The notes under the pieces: model-generated | Seen by the model: the letters and a program-made list of their open reading frames with translations, nothing else | Database searches by the model: none | What the model was told of the DNA's origin: nothing | Translations under genes and position numbers: made by a program | Assembly: GCF_000617925.1 (NCBI RefSeq) | Contig: NZ_BAMT01000011.1 | Span: 1 to 64,000, forward strand | DNA length: 64,000 bases | Direction of reading: 5' to 3' | Source of the DNA: Methylobacillus glycogenes JCM 2850 | GTDB taxonomy: Bacteria > Pseudomonadota > Gammaproteobacteria > Burkholderiales > Methylophilaceae | Shown: piece by piece, positions 37,594 to 62,280 of the stretch | Layout of the letters: the number at the start of each line of letters is the position of its first letter | Position numbering within the stretch: the first letter of the stretch is position 1

Positions 37594-37610
37594 AGCAAAG
37601 GCTGTGCCAA
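37594..37610 (-). promoter_or_regulatory. Sigma-54 promoter of nrtABD
   Basis: Minus-strand TTGGCACAGCCTTTGCT is a near-perfect -24/-12 element with GG-N10-GC. The predicted start near 37582 gives a leader of about 230 nt that contains the ANTAR-type hairpin and terminator. Confidence 0.78.
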
Positions 37611-51049: not shown

Positions 51050-51960
51050 ATGCAATCTGTACACGAGTTGAATTCCCGATATGGGGTGGGGCACAAAATT
51101 CACTTTTCCTCTGACCAGAATGGTCTGGTCACGCTGGAAATTGAAAATCCGCATGCCAGTGCCAAAGTGGCGTTGCAAGGTGGTCATGTAATGCAGTGGA
51201 ACCCGCGGCATGCCGAAGTTCCAGTGCTGTGGTTATCAGATCAGGCCAGATTTGTTGCCGGGCGTTCCATCCGTGGTGGCGTGCCCGTATGCTGGCCCTG
51301 GTTTGGCCCGCACCCTACGGATGAAACCCTGTGTCCACACGGTTTTGCGCGTGTGGTGCCCTGGGAAGTGGTCGATGCCACCCCCATGCCGGACAACACC
51401 ACCAGCCTGGTGTTGCGCCTGGTGGAAAGCAAACAGGTAGAAAAACAGTGGCCTTATGACTGCGAGCTAAGCCTCACCATCAACATAGGCCCAGTGCTGA
51501 AAATGTCCCTAACCACCACCAACAAGGGCGATGAGCCGTTTGTGATTGGTGAAGCCCTGCATACCTACTTCCAGGTCAGTGATATTGAAGTAGTGAAAAT
51601 ACACGGCCTGGACCATAGCGAATATGAAGACAAGGTGGAGGATTATGCCTGCACCACCAGACAGGTGAGATCACCTTCTCGCAAGAAGTGGATAGGGTAT
51701 ACCTCAACACCGAGTCTACCTGCGTGCTGGAAGACCCAGGCCTGCGCCGCAAAATCATCATAGAGAAAAGCGGCAGCCAATCCACCGTGGTGTGGACTCC
51801 CTGGGAGCGCAAGGCCGCAGAAATCGGCGATCTGGGCAGTCATTACGGCTGGCGTCAGATGGTGTGTGTAGAGTCTTCCAATGTCAGAAGCAATGTAGTC
51901 ACCGTGGCACCAGGCAGCTCACACACCCTGAGCGTGCAGTACAGTACCGAAAGCCTGTAG
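51050..51960 (+). CDS. D-hexose-6-phosphate mutarotase, YeaD family (one base missing)
   Basis: Restored length 303 aa. Motifs: GGHVMQWNPR, SIRGGVPVCWPWFGPH, HGFARVVPWEV and, after the break, CVLEDPGLRRKIIIEKSGSQ with TVVWTPW. The frame breaks near 51649 (GCC-CTG read as GCCTG; ALHHQTGEITFSQEVDRVYL expected). It interconverts alpha and beta hexose-6-phosphates, useful for the ribulose monophosphate cycle where fructose-6-phosphate and glucose-6-phosphate are central. Confidence 0.9.
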
Positions 51961-52061: not shown

Positions 52062-52388
52062 ATGAAAACATTAGCGCATGTCATCATGGGCGCTTTCGCA
52101 TTACTGCTGACCAGCCAGGCTTACGCGGTGGATGCCAAGGCTGCCGAAAGCCTGGCGCAAAGAAACGGCTGCCTGGCTTGCCATACGGTCAATGAAAAAG
52201 TCGTCGGCCCTGCCCTTAAAGATGTAGCTGCCAAATATCGCGGTGAAAAAGGCGCAGAAGTCAAACTCATAGGCCGTGTCAAAAGCGGCTCCAATGGTGT
52301 CTGGGGGCCAGTGCCCATGTGGCCCAACAGCCCACAGGTCAAGGATGAAGATATCCGCGTAATTGTGCAGTGGATATTGACCTTATAG
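52062..52388 (+). CDS. Class I c-type cytochrome (c551/c552-like)
   Basis: 108 aa with a signal peptide (MKTLAHVIMGAFALLLTSQA). One heme site CLACH at residues 37-41 and a Met ligand in VPMWPN near residue 85. Mature size about 85 residues, as in c551/c552. A small periplasmic electron carrier; it may serve methanol oxidation or respiration, but it is not recognisably the xoxG cytochrome. Confidence 0.88.
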   Translation: MKTLAHVIMGAFALLLTSQAYAVDAKAAESLAQRNGCLACHTVNEKVVGPALKDVAAKYRGEKGAEVKLIGRVKSGSNGVWGPVPMWPNSPQVKDEDIRVIVQWILTL

Positions 52389-52732: not shown

Positions 52733-54610
52733 TCAACCCAAACCCAAGGCCTTCAACTTCCGATAAAAGCGATTACGGCTCATGCCCAGTTCACGCGCGG
52801 CGGCGGAGATGTTGCCGTTGTGCTGTTGCAGTGCCAGCCTTACGGCTTCGTTGGTGATATCGGTGATGGAGCCTGCTGCCAAGGCAGTCATCGCAGTTTG
52901 TTCTGCCGCTGCAGCACCCAGCTCCTCCATAAAGCCTGGAGGCAGGTGTTTGCGTTGCAAGGGCTGGCCTGCGGCCAGAGCCAGCATGGTTTTCAGCACA
53001 TTATGTAGTTGGCGGATATTGCCAGGCCAGGGGTGGCGCTGAAACAGCGCCAGCAAATCATCATTGAGCGTGGTGTTGGTGGCTTGTTCAGCGGTAAGCA
53101 GGCTTTGCACCAGCGCGGGCAAATCTTGACGGCTGCGCAGCGGTGGCAGCGTCAGGCTCAAGCCGTTCAGGCGGTAATACAAATCGCGGCGGAAAGTCCC
53201 GGCGGCCACTTTATCTTGCAGCGGCTGGTTGGTGGCGCTAATCAGGGCAAACTCCAGCTTTTTGGCCTTGCTGCCCCCCAGTGGGGTAATGCTGCGCTCT
53301 TGTAGCACACGCAATAGCCGGGCTTGCAGCAACAGGGGCATATCGCCAATTTCATCCAAGAAGAGCGTGCCGCCGTTGGCTTGCTCTATCTTGCCCTGGC
53401 TGCCTTTTTGCCTGGCTCCGGTAAACGCGCCTTCTTCATAGCCAAACAACTCTGCTTCTATCAGCCCTTCCGGCAGGGCGGCGCAGTTCACCGCAATCAT
53501 GGGGCCATCGGCACGGCTGCTGCTGTTGTGTATGGCGCTGGTAAGCAATTCCTTGCCCACTCCGGTTTCACCCTGAATCAGAATCGGGATGTCCTGATCC
53601 ATCACCAGCCTGGCTTGCTCCAGCACTTCGGCAATATGGCGGTCTGCGCTGGCCAGGTCTTCCAGCGTAATGCCGCGGCGCACTACAGGCCGCAGCGCGC
53701 TGGCTTTGCTGGCGGCAGTGATGGTTAGCCTGGCTTTAATGACGTGGCCCAGGCTGGTGCTGAGGTTGAGCACGGCTGGCTCAGCCTGCAAGGGCAGGGG
53801 CTGGCCAAATAATTGTTGGTAATCTTGCGGCAGCGTGTTGCAGCCCAGTTGCTGCAAACCATTATGGTTGATGGCCACCACGCGGCCGTCACGCTCAAAC
53901 ACGGCCACGCCTGCCCACTCGGTATCTATGAATTCAGCGCGTTCATGAAACTTCAGTGTCACCGGGCCTTGGTAACTGGCGCGGAACACGCGGTTTTCTA
54001 TCAATTGCGCGGCCATTTTCACCAGCGCCAGCGTGTGTTGCTGGTGGGCAGAGAAGGCATTGGTGACATTCAGCGTGCCCAGCAGCTCGTAATTGGCACC
54101 AAAGATAGGGACGGCATAGCAACTAAATGTGTGCAGTTGCTCAACAAAGTGTTCTGCGCCCTGCACCGCCACCGCCTGGCGTTCTATGATCGCCGTCCCA
54201 ATTGCATTGGTGCCGCGTTCTTGCTCGCGCCAGGAATAGCCCGGGCTTAATAGCTCAGCCGGGGCTAGGCCCATCAATTGATGCTCGCCGCGCGTGTGCA
54301 AAATCACGCCCTCGGCATCAGTGAGCGCAATCATGCTGTAAGAGTGCGCGATTTGCTCATAAAGCGAGGAAATTTCTGCCTTGGCCTGGGTCAGCAGCAA
54401 GTGGTTCTGGCTGCGTTTTTGCGCAAGTGCGGTGCTGTCCAGGGTTTCGGTGCTGAGTGGCTGGCAGGCTGGCACGCCGTTTTCACGGCTGCGCAACCAG
54501 GATTGGGCAATGGTGGCGTTGACAACCCCTCCTTGCATCTCGCCTTCAGCGAGAAATTGCTGCCGCGCGTGCTCAATCGCGCGCGGAGGTGTGGTCAATC
54601 TGTGAGTCAT
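52733..54610 (-). CDS. AcoR-like sigma-54-dependent activator
   Basis: 625 aa from MTHRLTTPPRAIEHARQQF at 54610. A GAF-type sensor region (about 50-300: SWREQERGTNAIGTAIIERQ is typical of AcoR relatives), AAA+ domain with Walker A GETGVGKE, the sigma-54-contact GAFTGA loop and NGGTLFLDEIGD, and a Fis-type HTH at the end (NISAAARELGMSRNRFYRKL). Members of this group answer to small metabolites such as acetoin or alcohols. It is divergent from xoxF, which has a sigma-54 promoter, so xoxF is the most likely target. Confidence 0.9.
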   Translation of the reverse strand: MTHRLTTPPRAIEHARQQFLAEGEMQGGVVNATIAQSWLRSRENGVPACQPLSTETLDSTALAQKRSQNHLLLTQAKAEISSLYEQIAHSYSMIALTDAEGVILHTRGEHQLMGLAPAELLSPGYSWREQERGTNAIGTAIIERQAVAVQGAEHFVEQLHTFSCYAVPIFGANYELLGTLNVTNAFSAHQQHTLALVKMAAQLIENRVFRASYQGPVTLKFHERAEFIDTEWAGVAVFERDGRVVAINHNGLQQLGCNTLPQDYQQLFGQPLPLQAEPAVLNLSTSLGHVIKARLTITAASKASALRPVVRRGITLEDLASADRHIAEVLEQARLVMDQDIPILIQGETGVGKELLTSAIHNSSSRADGPMIAVNCAALPEGLIEAELFGYEEGAFTGARQKGSQGKIEQANGGTLFLDEIGDMPLLLQARLLRVLQERSITPLGGSKAKKLEFALISATNQPLQDKVAAGTFRRDLYYRLNGLSLTLPPLRSRQDLPALVQSLLTAEQATNTTLNDDLLALFQRHPWPGNIRQLHNVLKTMLALAAGQPLQRKHLPPGFMEELGAAAAEQTAMTALAAGSITDITNEAVRLALQQHNGNISAAARELGMSRNRFYRKLKALGLG

Positions 54611-54637
54611 GATACGGAAGCTAACGAAATGAAACGA

Positions 54638-54677
54638 GTTGTACCCGAATGTAGCACTTGTGCTATTTCGATACAAC
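54638..54677. promoter_or_regulatory. Large inverted repeat, likely activator binding site
   Basis: A perfect 14-bp palindrome TAGCACTTGTGCTA (54652-54665) is nested within partial outer repeats: CGAA/TTCG and GTTGTA/TACAAC. It lies 28-67 bp upstream of the activator gene and its centre about 120 bp above the xoxF -24 element. Confidence 0.62.
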
Positions 54678-54777
54678 CTGTTTGACCGTAGGGTTGCTGT
54701 GCAAAGACAGGCTTCCCCATCTGTAAGGCATTCTTTCCTTTATTGATTTGGGAATTATTCCCGTTAATTGCCAGGAG

Positions 54778-54793
54778 TGGCACAGGGATTGCT
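54778..54793 (+). promoter_or_regulatory. Sigma-54 promoter of xoxF
   Basis: TGGCACAGGGATTGCT: GG (54779-54780) and GC (54791-54792) are 10 bp apart and the match to TGGCAC-N5-TTGC is exact. Predicted start about 54804, leaving a 5' leader of about 120 nt. A GGGAATTATTCCC palindrome lies just upstream at 54750-54762. Confidence 0.78.
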
Positions 54794-54886
54794 GAATAGG
54801 GCTGCACGTGAAAGATCGGCTCGCGTTGTAGCGACTGGTCATTACAGCCGTTCCGGTGGAGCTTGGGCGGCAGTCATAAAAAGCAA

Positions 54887-54910
54887 TTTAAGAATCTATT
54901 TAAGAATCTA
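54887..54910 (+). repeat. Tandem 12-bp repeat in the xoxF leader
   Basis: TTTAAGAATCTA occurs twice, head to tail, immediately before the GGAG ribosome-binding site (54912-54915). Confidence 0.9.
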
Positions 54911-54923
54911 TGGAGAACTACTT

Positions 54924-56795
54924 TTGAAAGCTAAGCATTTGAAACTGGCACTCGTGGCCAGCCTGCTGGGCGCGGTATCTGCCCCGGCATTGGCAGTGGA
55001 CAACCTGGAAAAACTCACCAAGGATGACAACCAGTGGGTAGCGCAGCGTAAGGATTACGCCAACACGGGTTACAGCGGCCTGTCGCAAATCAACAAGTCC
55101 AACATCAAAAACCTCAAGGCTGCCTGGAGCTTTGCCACTGGTGTTAACCGTGGTCACGAAGGTGCACCACTGGTAGTGGGCGATATCATGTACATCGCCA
55201 CCGCCTTCCCCAACAACGTATACGCGCTGGATCTCAGCAATGGCGAAAAGATCAAATGGTCTTACTTCCCCAAGCAAGACCCTTCCGTGCAATCGCTGCT
55301 GTGCTGCGATAACGTCACCCGTGGCCTGGGCTACGGCGATAACAAAATCTTCCTGCAACAGAATGATGGCATTCTGGTAGCCCTGGATGCCAAGACAGGC
55401 AACAAGGTGTGGGAAACCAAAGTGGTAGACGTCAAGCAAGGTGCCACCACCACCAACGCCCCGCATGTGTTCAAGGACAAAGTCATCACCGGTTGCTCGG
55501 GTGGTGAATACGGCGTGCGCTGCTACATCACCGCCTACAACATCAAGGATGGCTCGCTGGCATGGCGTGCCTACAGCACAGGCTCTGACGCCGACGTGCT
55601 GATAGGCAAGGACTTCAACAAGGAGGTGCCTGTACACAGCGCGCTCTCCGTATATGAAGACGTCAATGGCGGCAACAAAGAAGGCGGCTCCTTCAAGCCT
55701 GTTCCTGCCGATAAACTCAAATTCCCTGAAACTGACCTGGGCCTCAAAACCTGGCTCAAGCCACAAGCCTCCAAAAACGGCTGGGAACAAGGCGGCGGCG
55801 CTACCTGGGGTTGGTACTCCTACGATTCAGCTTTGAATCTGCTGTACTACTCCACTGGTAACCCATCGGTATGGAACCCGGATGTACGTCCAGGCGACAA
55901 CAAATGGTCCATGACCATCTTTGCGCGTGACCTCGACACTGGTCTCGCCAAATGGGGTTACCAGCTGACACCGCATGACGAGTGGGATTACGACGCCGTC
56001 AACGAAACTATCCTTTGGGATGCCGATGGCAAAAAACTGGCAACCCACTTTGACCGTAACGGCTTTGGCTACACCCTCAACCGTGAAACTGGCAAAGTGC
56101 TGGTGGCTGAGAAAATCCATCCTTTCGTCAACTGGGCTAGCAGCATAGACCTCAAGACTGGCGTGCCAGTGAAGGACCCCAAGTTCTCCACCCACCAGGA
56201 TGTAAACAGCAAAAACGTCTGCCCAGCATCTCTGGGTGTGAAGGATCAGCAGCCTGCGGCTTACTCACCCAAGAGCAAACTGTTCTATGTACCGCTTAAC
56301 CACGTCTGCATGGACTACGAGCCAGTAGAAGTGAAATATGTAGCGGGCCAACCTTGGGTAGGCGCAACCCTGAGCATGTTCCCCGGCCCTGACGGCGTCA
56401 TGGGCGGCTTCATGGCTTGGGATGGCCTCAAGGGCAAGCAAGTCTGGTACAACAAAGAGAAATTCTCTGTCTGGAGCGGTGCGCTGGTAACAGGTAGCGA
56501 TCTGGTCTTCTACGGCACCCTTGAGCGCTGGTTCAAGGCGGTAGATGGCAAAACAGGCAAAGAGCTGTGGAAATTCCGCGTGGGTTCTGGCGTGATTGGT
56601 AATGCCATCACCTACACCCACAAGGGTAAGCAATATGTAGGCGTATTGTCCGGCATTGGTGGCTGGGCGGGCGTCGCCATGAACCTGGGCCTGACCAACG
56701 AGAACGATGGTCTGGGCGCAGCAGGTGGTTACAAAGAACTGAAGGAGTGGAATGCAGCGCCAGGCGGCGGTGCACTCAACGTCTTCAGCCTGTAA
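54924..56795 (+). CDS. xoxF: Lanthanide-dependent methanol dehydrogenase XoxF
   Basis: 623 aa PQQ eight-bladed propeller. TTG at 54924 is chosen as start: GGAG lies eight bases upstream and it gives a clean signal peptide (MKAKHLKLALVASLLGAVSA). The vicinal Cys127-Cys128 pair, Glu195, Asn313 and catalytic Asp355 are present. Asp357, two residues after the catalytic Asp (DEWDYDAVNE), is the XoxF hallmark for lanthanide binding; Ca-type MxaF has Ala there. It oxidises methanol in the periplasm. xoxG and xoxJ are not adjacent. By overall sequence probably the XoxF4 clade of Methylophilaceae (inference). Confidence 0.94.
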   Translation: MKAKHLKLALVASLLGAVSAPALAVDNLEKLTKDDNQWVAQRKDYANTGYSGLSQINKSNIKNLKAAWSFATGVNRGHEGAPLVVGDIMYIATAFPNNVYALDLSNGEKIKWSYFPKQDPSVQSLLCCDNVTRGLGYGDNKIFLQQNDGILVALDAKTGNKVWETKVVDVKQGATTTNAPHVFKDKVITGCSGGEYGVRCYITAYNIKDGSLAWRAYSTGSDADVLIGKDFNKEVPVHSALSVYEDVNGGNKEGGSFKPVPADKLKFPETDLGLKTWLKPQASKNGWEQGGGATWGWYSYDSALNLLYYSTGNPSVWNPDVRPGDNKWSMTIFARDLDTGLAKWGYQLTPHDEWDYDAVNETILWDADGKKLATHFDRNGFGYTLNRETGKVLVAEKIHPFVNWASSIDLKTGVPVKDPKFSTHQDVNSKNVCPASLGVKDQQPAAYSPKSKLFYVPLNHVCMDYEPVEVKYVAGQPWVGATLSMFPGPDGVMGGFMAWDGLKGKQVWYNKEKFSVWSGALVTGSDLVFYGTLERWFKAVDGKTGKELWKFRVGSGVIGNAITYTHKGKQYVGVLSGIGGWAGVAMNLGLTNENDGLGAAGGYKELKEWNAAPGGGALNVFSL

Positions 56796-60922: not shown

Positions 60923-62190
60923 CTAGGACTTTACGGCGCGGTAGCCGATGTCACGGCGCAGCTGTAGGCCGTCAAACTGGATGGCATCGGCAATTTTGTA
61001 TGCCTGTAATTGCGCATACTTCACGGTTTCGCCTAGCGCGGCAACGCAGAGTACGCGGCCACCGCTGGTGACTACCTTGCCATCTTTCATGGTGGTGCCC
61101 GCATGGAACACATGCGCGTCTTCCAGATCTTTCGGTAAACCTGTGATTTCATCACCCAGGCGTGGGGTGTCAGGGTAGTTGGCCGAGGCCAACACCACGC
61201 CCAGCGCACTGCGCCAGTCCCAGTCTGCCTGTGCTTCATTGAGTGTGCCATTGACCGCATGCTCGGCCAGGGTGACCAAATCACTCTTGAGGCGCAGCAT
61301 AATGGGCTGGGTTTCCGGATCACCCATGCGGCAATTGAATTCCAGCGTCTTGACGTTGCCATCTGGCTGATCATCAGGCCCGCGTAAAGGAAGCCAGTGT
61401 AAGGAATGCCATCCTTGGCCATGCCTTCCACGGTGGGGGTAATGATCTCGCGCATGACCTTCGCGTGTATGTCTGGCGTCACCACCGGGGCTGGGGAATA
61501 CGCACCCATGCCGCCAGTATTGGGGCCTTGGTCGCCATCCAGCAGGCGCTTGTGATCCTGGCTAGTTGCCAGGGCCAGGATATTCTTGCCATCGACCATG
61601 ACAATAAAGCTGGCTTCTTCGCCAGTGAGAAACTCTTCAATCACCACGCGCGCACCTGCTGCGCCCAGCTTGTTGTCGGCCAGCATGGCATCAATTGCCT
61701 CATGCGCTTCAGTCTCAGTCATGGCGACAACAACGCCCTTGCCAGCGGCCAGGCCATCGGCCTTGATGACGATAGGCGCACCTTGCTGCTTGACGTAGTC
61801 ATGCGCAGCAACGGCATCGGTAAAGGTTGCGTAGGCGGCGGTAGGGATGTTGTGGCGCACCATGAAAGCCTTGGCAAAGTCCTTGGAGCTTTCCAGTTGT
61901 GCTGCCGCCTGAGTGGGGCCAAAGATTTTCAGCTTGGCGGCGCGGAAGGCATCTACCACGCCTTGCGAAAGCGGTGCTTCAGGGCCAACGATGGTAAGGC
62001 CGATGTGCTCTTTTTCGGCAAACTCAACCAGTTCCTGCACCTTGGTGATGGGCACGTTAACCATGTCCGGGTCCAGCGCTGTCCCTGCATTGCCAGGAGC
62101 TACATAAACACGGCTGATACGCTCACTTTGAGCCAGTTTCCATGCAAGTGCGTGCTCACGCCCGCCGCCACCGATGACTAGAACTTTCAT
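60923..62190 (-). CDS. purD: Phosphoribosylamine-glycine ligase (one base missing)
   Basis: Restored length 422 aa from MKVLVIGGGGREHALAWKLA at 62190 (an ATG three bases earlier is also possible). ATP-grasp motifs: IKADGLAAGKGVVVAMTE, DHKRLLDGDQGPNTGGMGAY and, after the break, TLEFNCRMGDPETQPIM. The frame breaks near 61366 (AGC-CCA read as AGCCA). It makes glycinamide ribonucleotide in purine synthesis. Confidence 0.95.
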
Positions 62191-62280
62191 CATTAATCCT
62201 TTTGTATTTCTTACCCTGGGTATTTCGCTGGTCTGGATAATTTCCAGACCTTGGTACTTCAAATTGTAGTATCACGCTAA

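Follow-up and report, generated by a model that had tools for sequence, protein, structure and literature searches.

The xoxF gene analysed here is faced by a divergently transcribed activator gene and preceded by a conserved -24/-12 promoter, with a conserved TGT-N11-ACA element further upstream: together, these parts form a module at the level of sequence. We consider it likely (probability roughly 0.8, judged from sequence comparison) that they amount to a self-contained sigma-54 module controlling a subset of the lanthanide-dependent methanol dehydrogenase genes in Methylophilaceae; such a module is ordinary in mechanism for sigma-54. The locus lies in a 64,000-nucleotide stretch of DNA from Methylobacillus glycogenes JCM 2850 (the window), which sits in contig C18 of the 3.25-Mb genome G000, and its features are collected in Table 1. 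An earlier note on this DNA had read xoxF as being under the control of sigma-54 and a divergent AcoR-like activator, and this reading is supported on sequence by the conserved gene pair, by the presence of rpoN in the same genome (PF04552 at C23:87081-87554, 227 bits) and by a simple consensus scan, in which no sigma-70-like site was seen on the plus strand in front of xoxF.

The activator gene, xoxF and the elements between them

Table 1. Features of the xoxF locus (positions in the window).
Feature	Position	Strand	Basis
Small c-type cytochrome gene, beyond the activator gene	52062..52388	+	Pfam, neighbourhood comparison
Sigma-54-dependent activator (bEBP)	52733..54610	-	Pfam, NCBIfam (below cut-offs), 19-sequence alignment, PDB sequence/fold matches
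Interrupted inverted repeat TAGCAC-TT-GTGCTA	54652..54665	+	Sequence, genus comparison
Predicted activator-binding site (UAS)	54656..54677	+	Motif search, other-genera matrix, two-part pattern, count
Weak IHF-like site, 2 mismatches, tentative	54724..54736	-	Consensus search
GGGAATTATTCCC palindrome	54750..54762	+	By eye and genome search
Sigma-54 -24/-12 element TGGCAC-N5-TTGC	54778..54792	+	Exact match; conserved in 42/42 gaps
xoxF, PQQ-/lanthanide-type methanol dehydrogenase large subunit	54924..56795	+	TIGR03075, best solved relative 6oc5 XoxF, DEWDYD

The activator gene encodes a protein of 625 amino acids, the likely start being the ATG at 54610. Pfam identifies a GAF domain (residues 82-207) behind an N-terminal region, a sigma-54 activation domain (322-486; PF00158, 220.4 bits) and a Fis-type helix-turn-helix (592-621; PF02954, 38.5 bits): this is the GAF-AAA-Fis order of AcoR, the activator of acetoin operons, and no receiver domain was found by Pfam. 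The GAFTGA motif is present in the protein (GAFTGA or GAYTGA in 19/19 aligned relatives), which confirms the GAF, GAFTGA and Fis assignments of the earlier note and, with an AAA+ sigma-54 activation domain carrying GAFTGA and a DNA-binding helix-turn-helix, identifies the protein as a bEBP. Of 25 NCBIfam models listed for the protein, none reaches its cut-off, the best E-value being that of DhaR (NF008485: 294.5 bits against a curated cut-off of 551), and its N-terminal half matches the N-terminal half of E. coli DhaR in fold at 16% identity. The predicted structure exhibits a mean pLDDT of 67 with a poor AAA+ domain, and the ligand pocket was not read from this model. The activator is classed as AcoR-like only.

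Across an intergenic gap of 313 bp, xoxF likely starts at a TTG with GGAGA upstream. Its product is a PQQ alcohol dehydrogenase of TIGR03075 (639.5 bits; cut-off 480.05) and possesses the second aspartate of XoxF-type enzymes, two residues past the catalytic one (DEWDYD in the window, DEWDFD in 6oc5, as compared to DEWDYA in the MxaF-type 4tqo); by family and by this additional residue, it is assigned as a XoxF methanol dehydrogenase. Along with xoxF, the neighbours identified in the window are the cytochrome c gene and an aldose epimerase-like gene. The latter (51050-51960, Pfam) reads as two overlapping ORFs in different frames, as does a gene at 60923-62262 that we take to be purD, and since both are split in this way the assembly of this genome may contain frame errors. 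Elsewhere in the genome, a second activator copy (L055) lies in broken frames and two xoxF-like copies are broken, all of which may be assembly errors rather than pseudogenes.

The promoter reads TGGCAC-AGGGA-TTGC, an exact match as the earlier note had claimed, with GG at -24, GC at -12 and 10 bp between them. The exact TGGCAC-N5-TTGC occurs at one other place in the window (37595-37609, minus strand) and at 41 places in the genome, as compared to 5 for the pattern read backwards. TGGYAY-N5-TTGC was found in all 42 gaps between an activator gene and a facing xoxF (delimited by protein alignments), against 16 of 4200 dinucleotide shuffles. Conservation extends beyond this pattern in the 35 nonredundant gaps: the fourth promoter base is always C, the base preceding TGG is T or C in 33, the base following TGGCAY is A or G in 35/35, and TTGC is mostly followed by AAT. 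The extended YTGGCAY-N5-TTGC is far commoner than its reversed form (55 vs 2 in the same genome; 35-45 vs 1-5 in five congeners), and sigma-54 is therefore probably in wide use in these genomes; many single matches may be due to chance.

A motif search in the 260 bp upstream of the -24 element in the 35 nonredundant gaps returned AaCTGTtCAATTtTGACACA, with a log-likelihood of 398.9 (width 20); five shuffled sets, searched with fewer restarts and iterations than the real set, gave 61.5-69.5. TGT-N11-ACA is the core of this site; its copy in the window occupies 54659-54675 and is 102 bp away from the -24 element on the upstream side. A search up to 175 bp from -24 finds TGT-N11-ACA in 41 of the 42 gaps, at distances of 101-143 bp, and in 80 of 2100 simple shuffles: the one gap without an exact copy is L025, a second copy is seen in L009, L011, L060 and L061, the element lies away from the motif-search site in L030 and L036, and the site of L060 was misplaced by the motif search. 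Constant phasing between this site and the promoter was rejected, as the distances show no single clear helical phase.

A matrix of counts from 25 sites outside the genus, with L060 left out, gives 54656-54675 the top score in the window, both strands considered (13.2 bits vs 8.3 for the next match); these sites were initially located using a matrix trained on all genera, which makes a little leakage possible. The two-part pattern of promoter and TGT-N11-ACA occurs twice in the genome of the window, each time in front of an activator-linked xoxF; the six genomes of the genus hold 10 matches, 9 of them before activator-linked xoxFs, with 0 for the reversed control. It is found in 53/150 genomes of the family, at some places away from xoxF, and some true loci, those of G006 and G139 among them, escape it; five matches were observed in G021:C4, a genome without an activator relative above 500 bits. 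The UAS half alone shows no excess in the genome of the window with up to 2 mismatches (23 vs 34 for the reversed control), and a UAS before the cytochrome gene is absent from the ten best matches of the window, with best scores below 0 in four relatives within the genus.

The earlier note had placed an enhancer-like site between the two genes in the form of a 14-bp perfect palindrome with outer repeats. A conserved element does lie there upstream of the promoter, in the form of TGT-N11-ACA and not of the palindrome. The supposed palindrome is an interrupted inverted repeat, in which a TT, not self-complementary, separates two arms of 6 bp, and its right arm GTGCTA is not kept in the other four loci of the same type in the genus (GTGCAA in three, GTGCGG in one): it was thus ruled out as the core operator. 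It overlaps the left part of the TGT-N11-ACA element. As for the outer repeats, GTTGTA is not kept in the genus loci, whereas TACAAC falls within the conserved element and its ACAAC is kept.

Two further elements lie closer to the promoter. Lying 15 bp before the -24 element, the GGGAATTATTCCC palindrome is also seen (by eye) in the four genus loci of the same type, with 0-2 differences, and is found exactly at one further place in the genome; a GGGAAYTGTTCCC-like sequence, similar to GGGAATTATTCCC, was noticed by eye beside the UAS in four relatives within the genus and is absent from the window. Many loci of genera g7 and g19 have IHF-like sequences stronger than that of the window, at a distance of 53-80 bp upstream of -24, with exact matches in 8 of the 35 gaps tested, a tentative count made without a chance control.

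Conservation of the gene pair and comparison with unlinked xoxF genes

Relatives of the activator were searched in 150 Methylophilaceae genomes, from which we took 55 places: 53 listed matches above 500 bits and two that were read in pieces (L054 in G045 and the second copy L055 in the genome of the window), nine loci present twice in the set being counted once. At 42 of these the activator gene faces a divergent xoxF, across 39 genomes and 7 of 24 genera. The earlier note had asked for such a comparison and had named an unconserved pair as evidence against its reading: the arrangement is conserved, and the promoter is present wherever the activator faces xoxF.

The remaining 13 places lack a facing xoxF. 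Eleven of them (L044-L054) exhibit a divergent aldehyde dehydrogenase gene, which adjoins the activator gene in ten and lies one ORF further in L046. The other two, L033 and L034, are duplicate activators 143 kb apart in G062 with no xoxF beside them; both face a metallophosphoesterase-like ORF, and as the relative of this ORF in G010 sits behind xoxF, it is probable that xoxF was lost at L033 and L034. A promoter of the TGGYAY-N5-TTGC type was not found at either place. Both were seen by eye to keep TGT-N11-ACA.

As controls served xoxF-like genes without an activator, a subset of the matches from 30 hand-picked genomes; after leaving out L093 and L094, which are fragments at contig ends, 44 were usable (40 xoxF-like genes and 4 more distant PQQ dehydrogenases). 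Within 400 bp upstream, TGGYAY-N5-TTGC was found in 0 of these 44 regions. A weaker look-alike, TGGCGTGNCCNTTGC, is present in L073 and L074, and a match in L101 of the canonical clade (see below) was discarded, since it lies inside coding sequence. Control of xoxF by sigma-54 in general is thus ruled out by the canonical xoxF genes without the site; judged by sequence, the pairing is limited to some xoxFs, with other xoxFs of the same genomes lacking it. Many of the canonical upstream regions (L070-L110, for example L073, L079 and L107) have in common, by eye, a TGTAANNAAATTGTAAC block of repeats, a TTGACT...TATATT stretch that is sigma-70-like and a TTAACCCTTAGTA leader, and are candidates for holding the site of another regulator.

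xoxF subtypes and the origin of the activator

Two trees of XoxF proteins were calculated: a quick one with 88 proteins (42 linked and 46 unlinked rows) and a careful one with 42 rows, 18 of them linked. The quick tree contains a canonical clade of 40 rows (SH-aLRT 100), which holds 40 of the 46 unlinked rows and includes, for four small genomes, the only xoxF that was matched. All 42 linked xoxFs fall outside this clade, as do the 18 in the careful tree. The five Methylobacillus xoxFs of the window type branch apart from the other linked xoxFs, and these others fall together with the canonical clade (support 89 in the quick tree, 91/79 in the careful tree). Neither best tree unites the linked xoxFs in a single clade, although such a clade is not rejected (p-AU 0.294); the pairing with the activator may thus predate the canonical group and have been lost in that group later.

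The surroundings of 16 linked loci were also examined. A small cytochrome gene lies directly behind xoxF in six of them (genera g7 and g19), and a different cytochrome gene is found there in two (g16 and g17); in the four Methylobacillus loci of the same type, the small-cytochrome homologue lies beyond the activator gene, as in the window, and L031, L032, L055 and L064 possess neither in the stretch examined. The arrangement with a cytochrome gene behind xoxF resembles the layout of mmol_1770/mmol_1769 and msip34_0016/0015, as excerpted from PMC3728764. In excerpts of PMC6028718, mmol_1770 is named XoxF4-2, further XoxF4 subtypes are mentioned and small planktonic genomes are said to carry only XoxF4-1. 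On the basis of this cytochrome neighbourhood and of the naming in the published mmol_1770 accounts, many linked xoxFs are probably XoxF4-2; the xoxF of the window itself may represent a neighbouring subtype. Published transcript levels differ between the copies: the excerpted data of PMC3728764 show msip34_0016 raised 100-fold in situ relative to laboratory cultures but still low, mmol_1770 raised 4- to 6-fold in situ and a third homologue very low throughout, and a 2017 study (PMC5723320, in part) describes multiple xoxF copies in one genome as not all regulated alike.

The activator tree comprised 67 activators, including 40 of the 42 that face xoxF; L025 (internal stop), L055 (broken frames), L034 (second copy of L033) and L054 were left out. 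The 40 xoxF-facing activators and one orphan form one clade (100/96), which is adjoined by L044 and then by nine more activators that face aldehyde dehydrogenase genes. L044 itself faces an aldehyde dehydrogenase gene, yet has TGGCACACCGCTTGC and (by eye) TGT-N11-ACA. L045-L054 show GTCTCA/TGAGAC-like repeats, and several of them an AGGCAC-N5-TCTGC-like promoter (by eye). Outgroup branches in this tree are very long, leaving the root and the outgroup order unsure. Since the activators facing aldehyde dehydrogenase genes are the nearest relatives, the simplest reading, given this unsure root, is that the activator appears to have been recruited within the family from aldehyde dehydrogenase control.

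Outside the family, strong activator relatives were found in 16 of 274 class-level genomes (that of the window included), and within 1.5-kb flanks of class-level relatives xoxF was found in the genome of the window only. Among 99 loci (L115-L214 without that of the window), there are 11 in which the activator relative has an aldehyde dehydrogenase gene next to it in divergent orientation. In Nevskia (L139), a xoxF lies ~2.7 kb from the activator relative, on the same strand and with other ORFs between, and is probably unrelated to it. A wider contig scan for activator relatives gave none titled Methylophilaceae among the matches listed. Three xoxF-like loci in two non-family genomes, out of 369 class-level genomes, lack TGGYAY-N5-TTGC in the 500 bp upstream.

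Proposed mechanism, alternatives and significance

Within the proposed sigma-54 module, an activator dimer would bind TGT-N11-ACA via its Fis domain and the N-terminal GAF region would respond to an effector; the AAA+ ring would then assemble and contact the RpoN holoenzyme through GAFTGA, with the promoter being opened by ATP hydrolysis. In this way, a cell could switch its activator-linked xoxF independently of its canonical one. The effector would most likely be a small alcohol or aldehyde from C1/C2 metabolism, by analogy with the nearest activator relatives, which face aldehyde dehydrogenase genes; as against this, the likeness of the N-terminal half to DhaR is distant, and the solved partners of DhaR are proteins (DhaK, DhaL). 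Plain methanol is not obviously the signal, given that the probable counterpart in related species shows low levels in the laboratory and higher ones in situ (PMC3728764, in part). Somewhat beyond an even chance, in our estimate, the diversity of XoxF4 would also split the transcription machinery: canonical genes without a sigma-54 site on the one hand, and on the other hand the remaining XoxF4 genes, gated by RpoN together with a cytoplasmic sensor of their own that was taken over from the control of aldehyde dehydrogenase.

The module could also work as described and merely permit transcription, with the level of xoxF being set by a lanthanide two-component system or by a factor binding the GGGAATTATTCCC palindrome. 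Excerpts of PMC11845868 place lanthanide-type dehydrogenases of other bacteria under two-component systems, and the palindrome is similar by eye in five genus loci of the same type; however, it was noticed only in these Methylobacillus loci, whereas promoter and UAS are present in seven genera, and Pfam identifies no receiver domain in the activator itself, such that we regard this alternative as improbable. Transcription of the window xoxF from a sigma-70 promoter, as may be the case for canonical xoxF genes given the stretch that many of their upstream regions share, was the other outcome that the earlier note had named as speaking against it: a simple consensus scan of 54560-54960 identified no sigma-70-like site on the plus strand, the only match being on the minus strand, and this explanation is accordingly very improbable. 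We give equally little credence to the activator having its real target elsewhere, or only in itself, with an incidental -24/-12 element before xoxF. The two activator copies of G062 without xoxF and the two-part matches away from xoxF in some family genomes would fit such a target, yet the promoter at those two copies was not found either, the frequency of the promoter in the xoxF-facing gaps far exceeds that in shuffles, and within the genus nine of ten two-part matches belong to activator-linked xoxFs.

Amongst known systems, the AcoR/DhaR-type activators that face aldehyde dehydrogenase genes (L044-L054) are closest to the sigma-54 module proposed here: they show the same domain order, are divergent from their target and are nearest in the tree, and differ in that the target in the window is a PQQ/lanthanide-type dehydrogenase and the DNA site TGT-N11-ACA instead of the repeats of L045-L054. 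By description only, and from parts of the sources, two further systems are alike: BmoR of Thauera butanivorans is an alcohol-responsive sigma-54 activator controlling an oxidation enzyme, albeit an alkane monooxygenase (PMC6366067), and SigL/AdhR of Clostridium beijerinckii combines sigma-54 and a dedicated activator on alcohol dehydrogenase genes, which there encode solvent-producing enzymes (PMC7017808). The exaA gene of Azospirillum brasilense, as cited in an excerpt of PMC6115532, encodes a sigma-54-dependent PQQ alcohol dehydrogenase that is not a XoxF and has a LuxR-type regulator, with no divergent GAF/AAA+ activator. MxcQE, MxbDM, MxaY/MxaB and PedS2/PedR2 help to control lanthanide-/calcium-type alcohol dehydrogenases and are, in the same excerpts of PMC11845868, two-component systems or response regulators and not GAF/AAA+ sigma-54 activators. 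The neighbourhood of xoxF and a regulator is already known as annotation, the regulator being included in the cluster map of a 2024 review (in part). The open-access literature searched gave no account of the promoter, of the upstream site or of xoxF being controlled by sigma-54, and prior work may exist in subscription papers; as far as searched, the module is undescribed as a regulatory unit for lanthanide methanol dehydrogenase.

Methylophilaceae carry several xoxF copies that are differently regulated in published transcriptomes (PMC3728764, PMC5723320), the mechanism of which was not found in the excerpts of these studies, and a set of activator, site and promoter for some copies would help to explain how copies in one cell come to be regulated differently. 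The conservation of all three parts makes this mechanism directly testable, and the activator might find use as a sensor of C1 or C2 compounds. If the proposed reading is true, RpoN and an effector-responsive activator would join the known regulators of lanthanide-type methanol dehydrogenases, and a lanthanide enzyme would be switched by a signal derived from an alcohol or aldehyde, replacing or adding to the two-component lanthanide switch.
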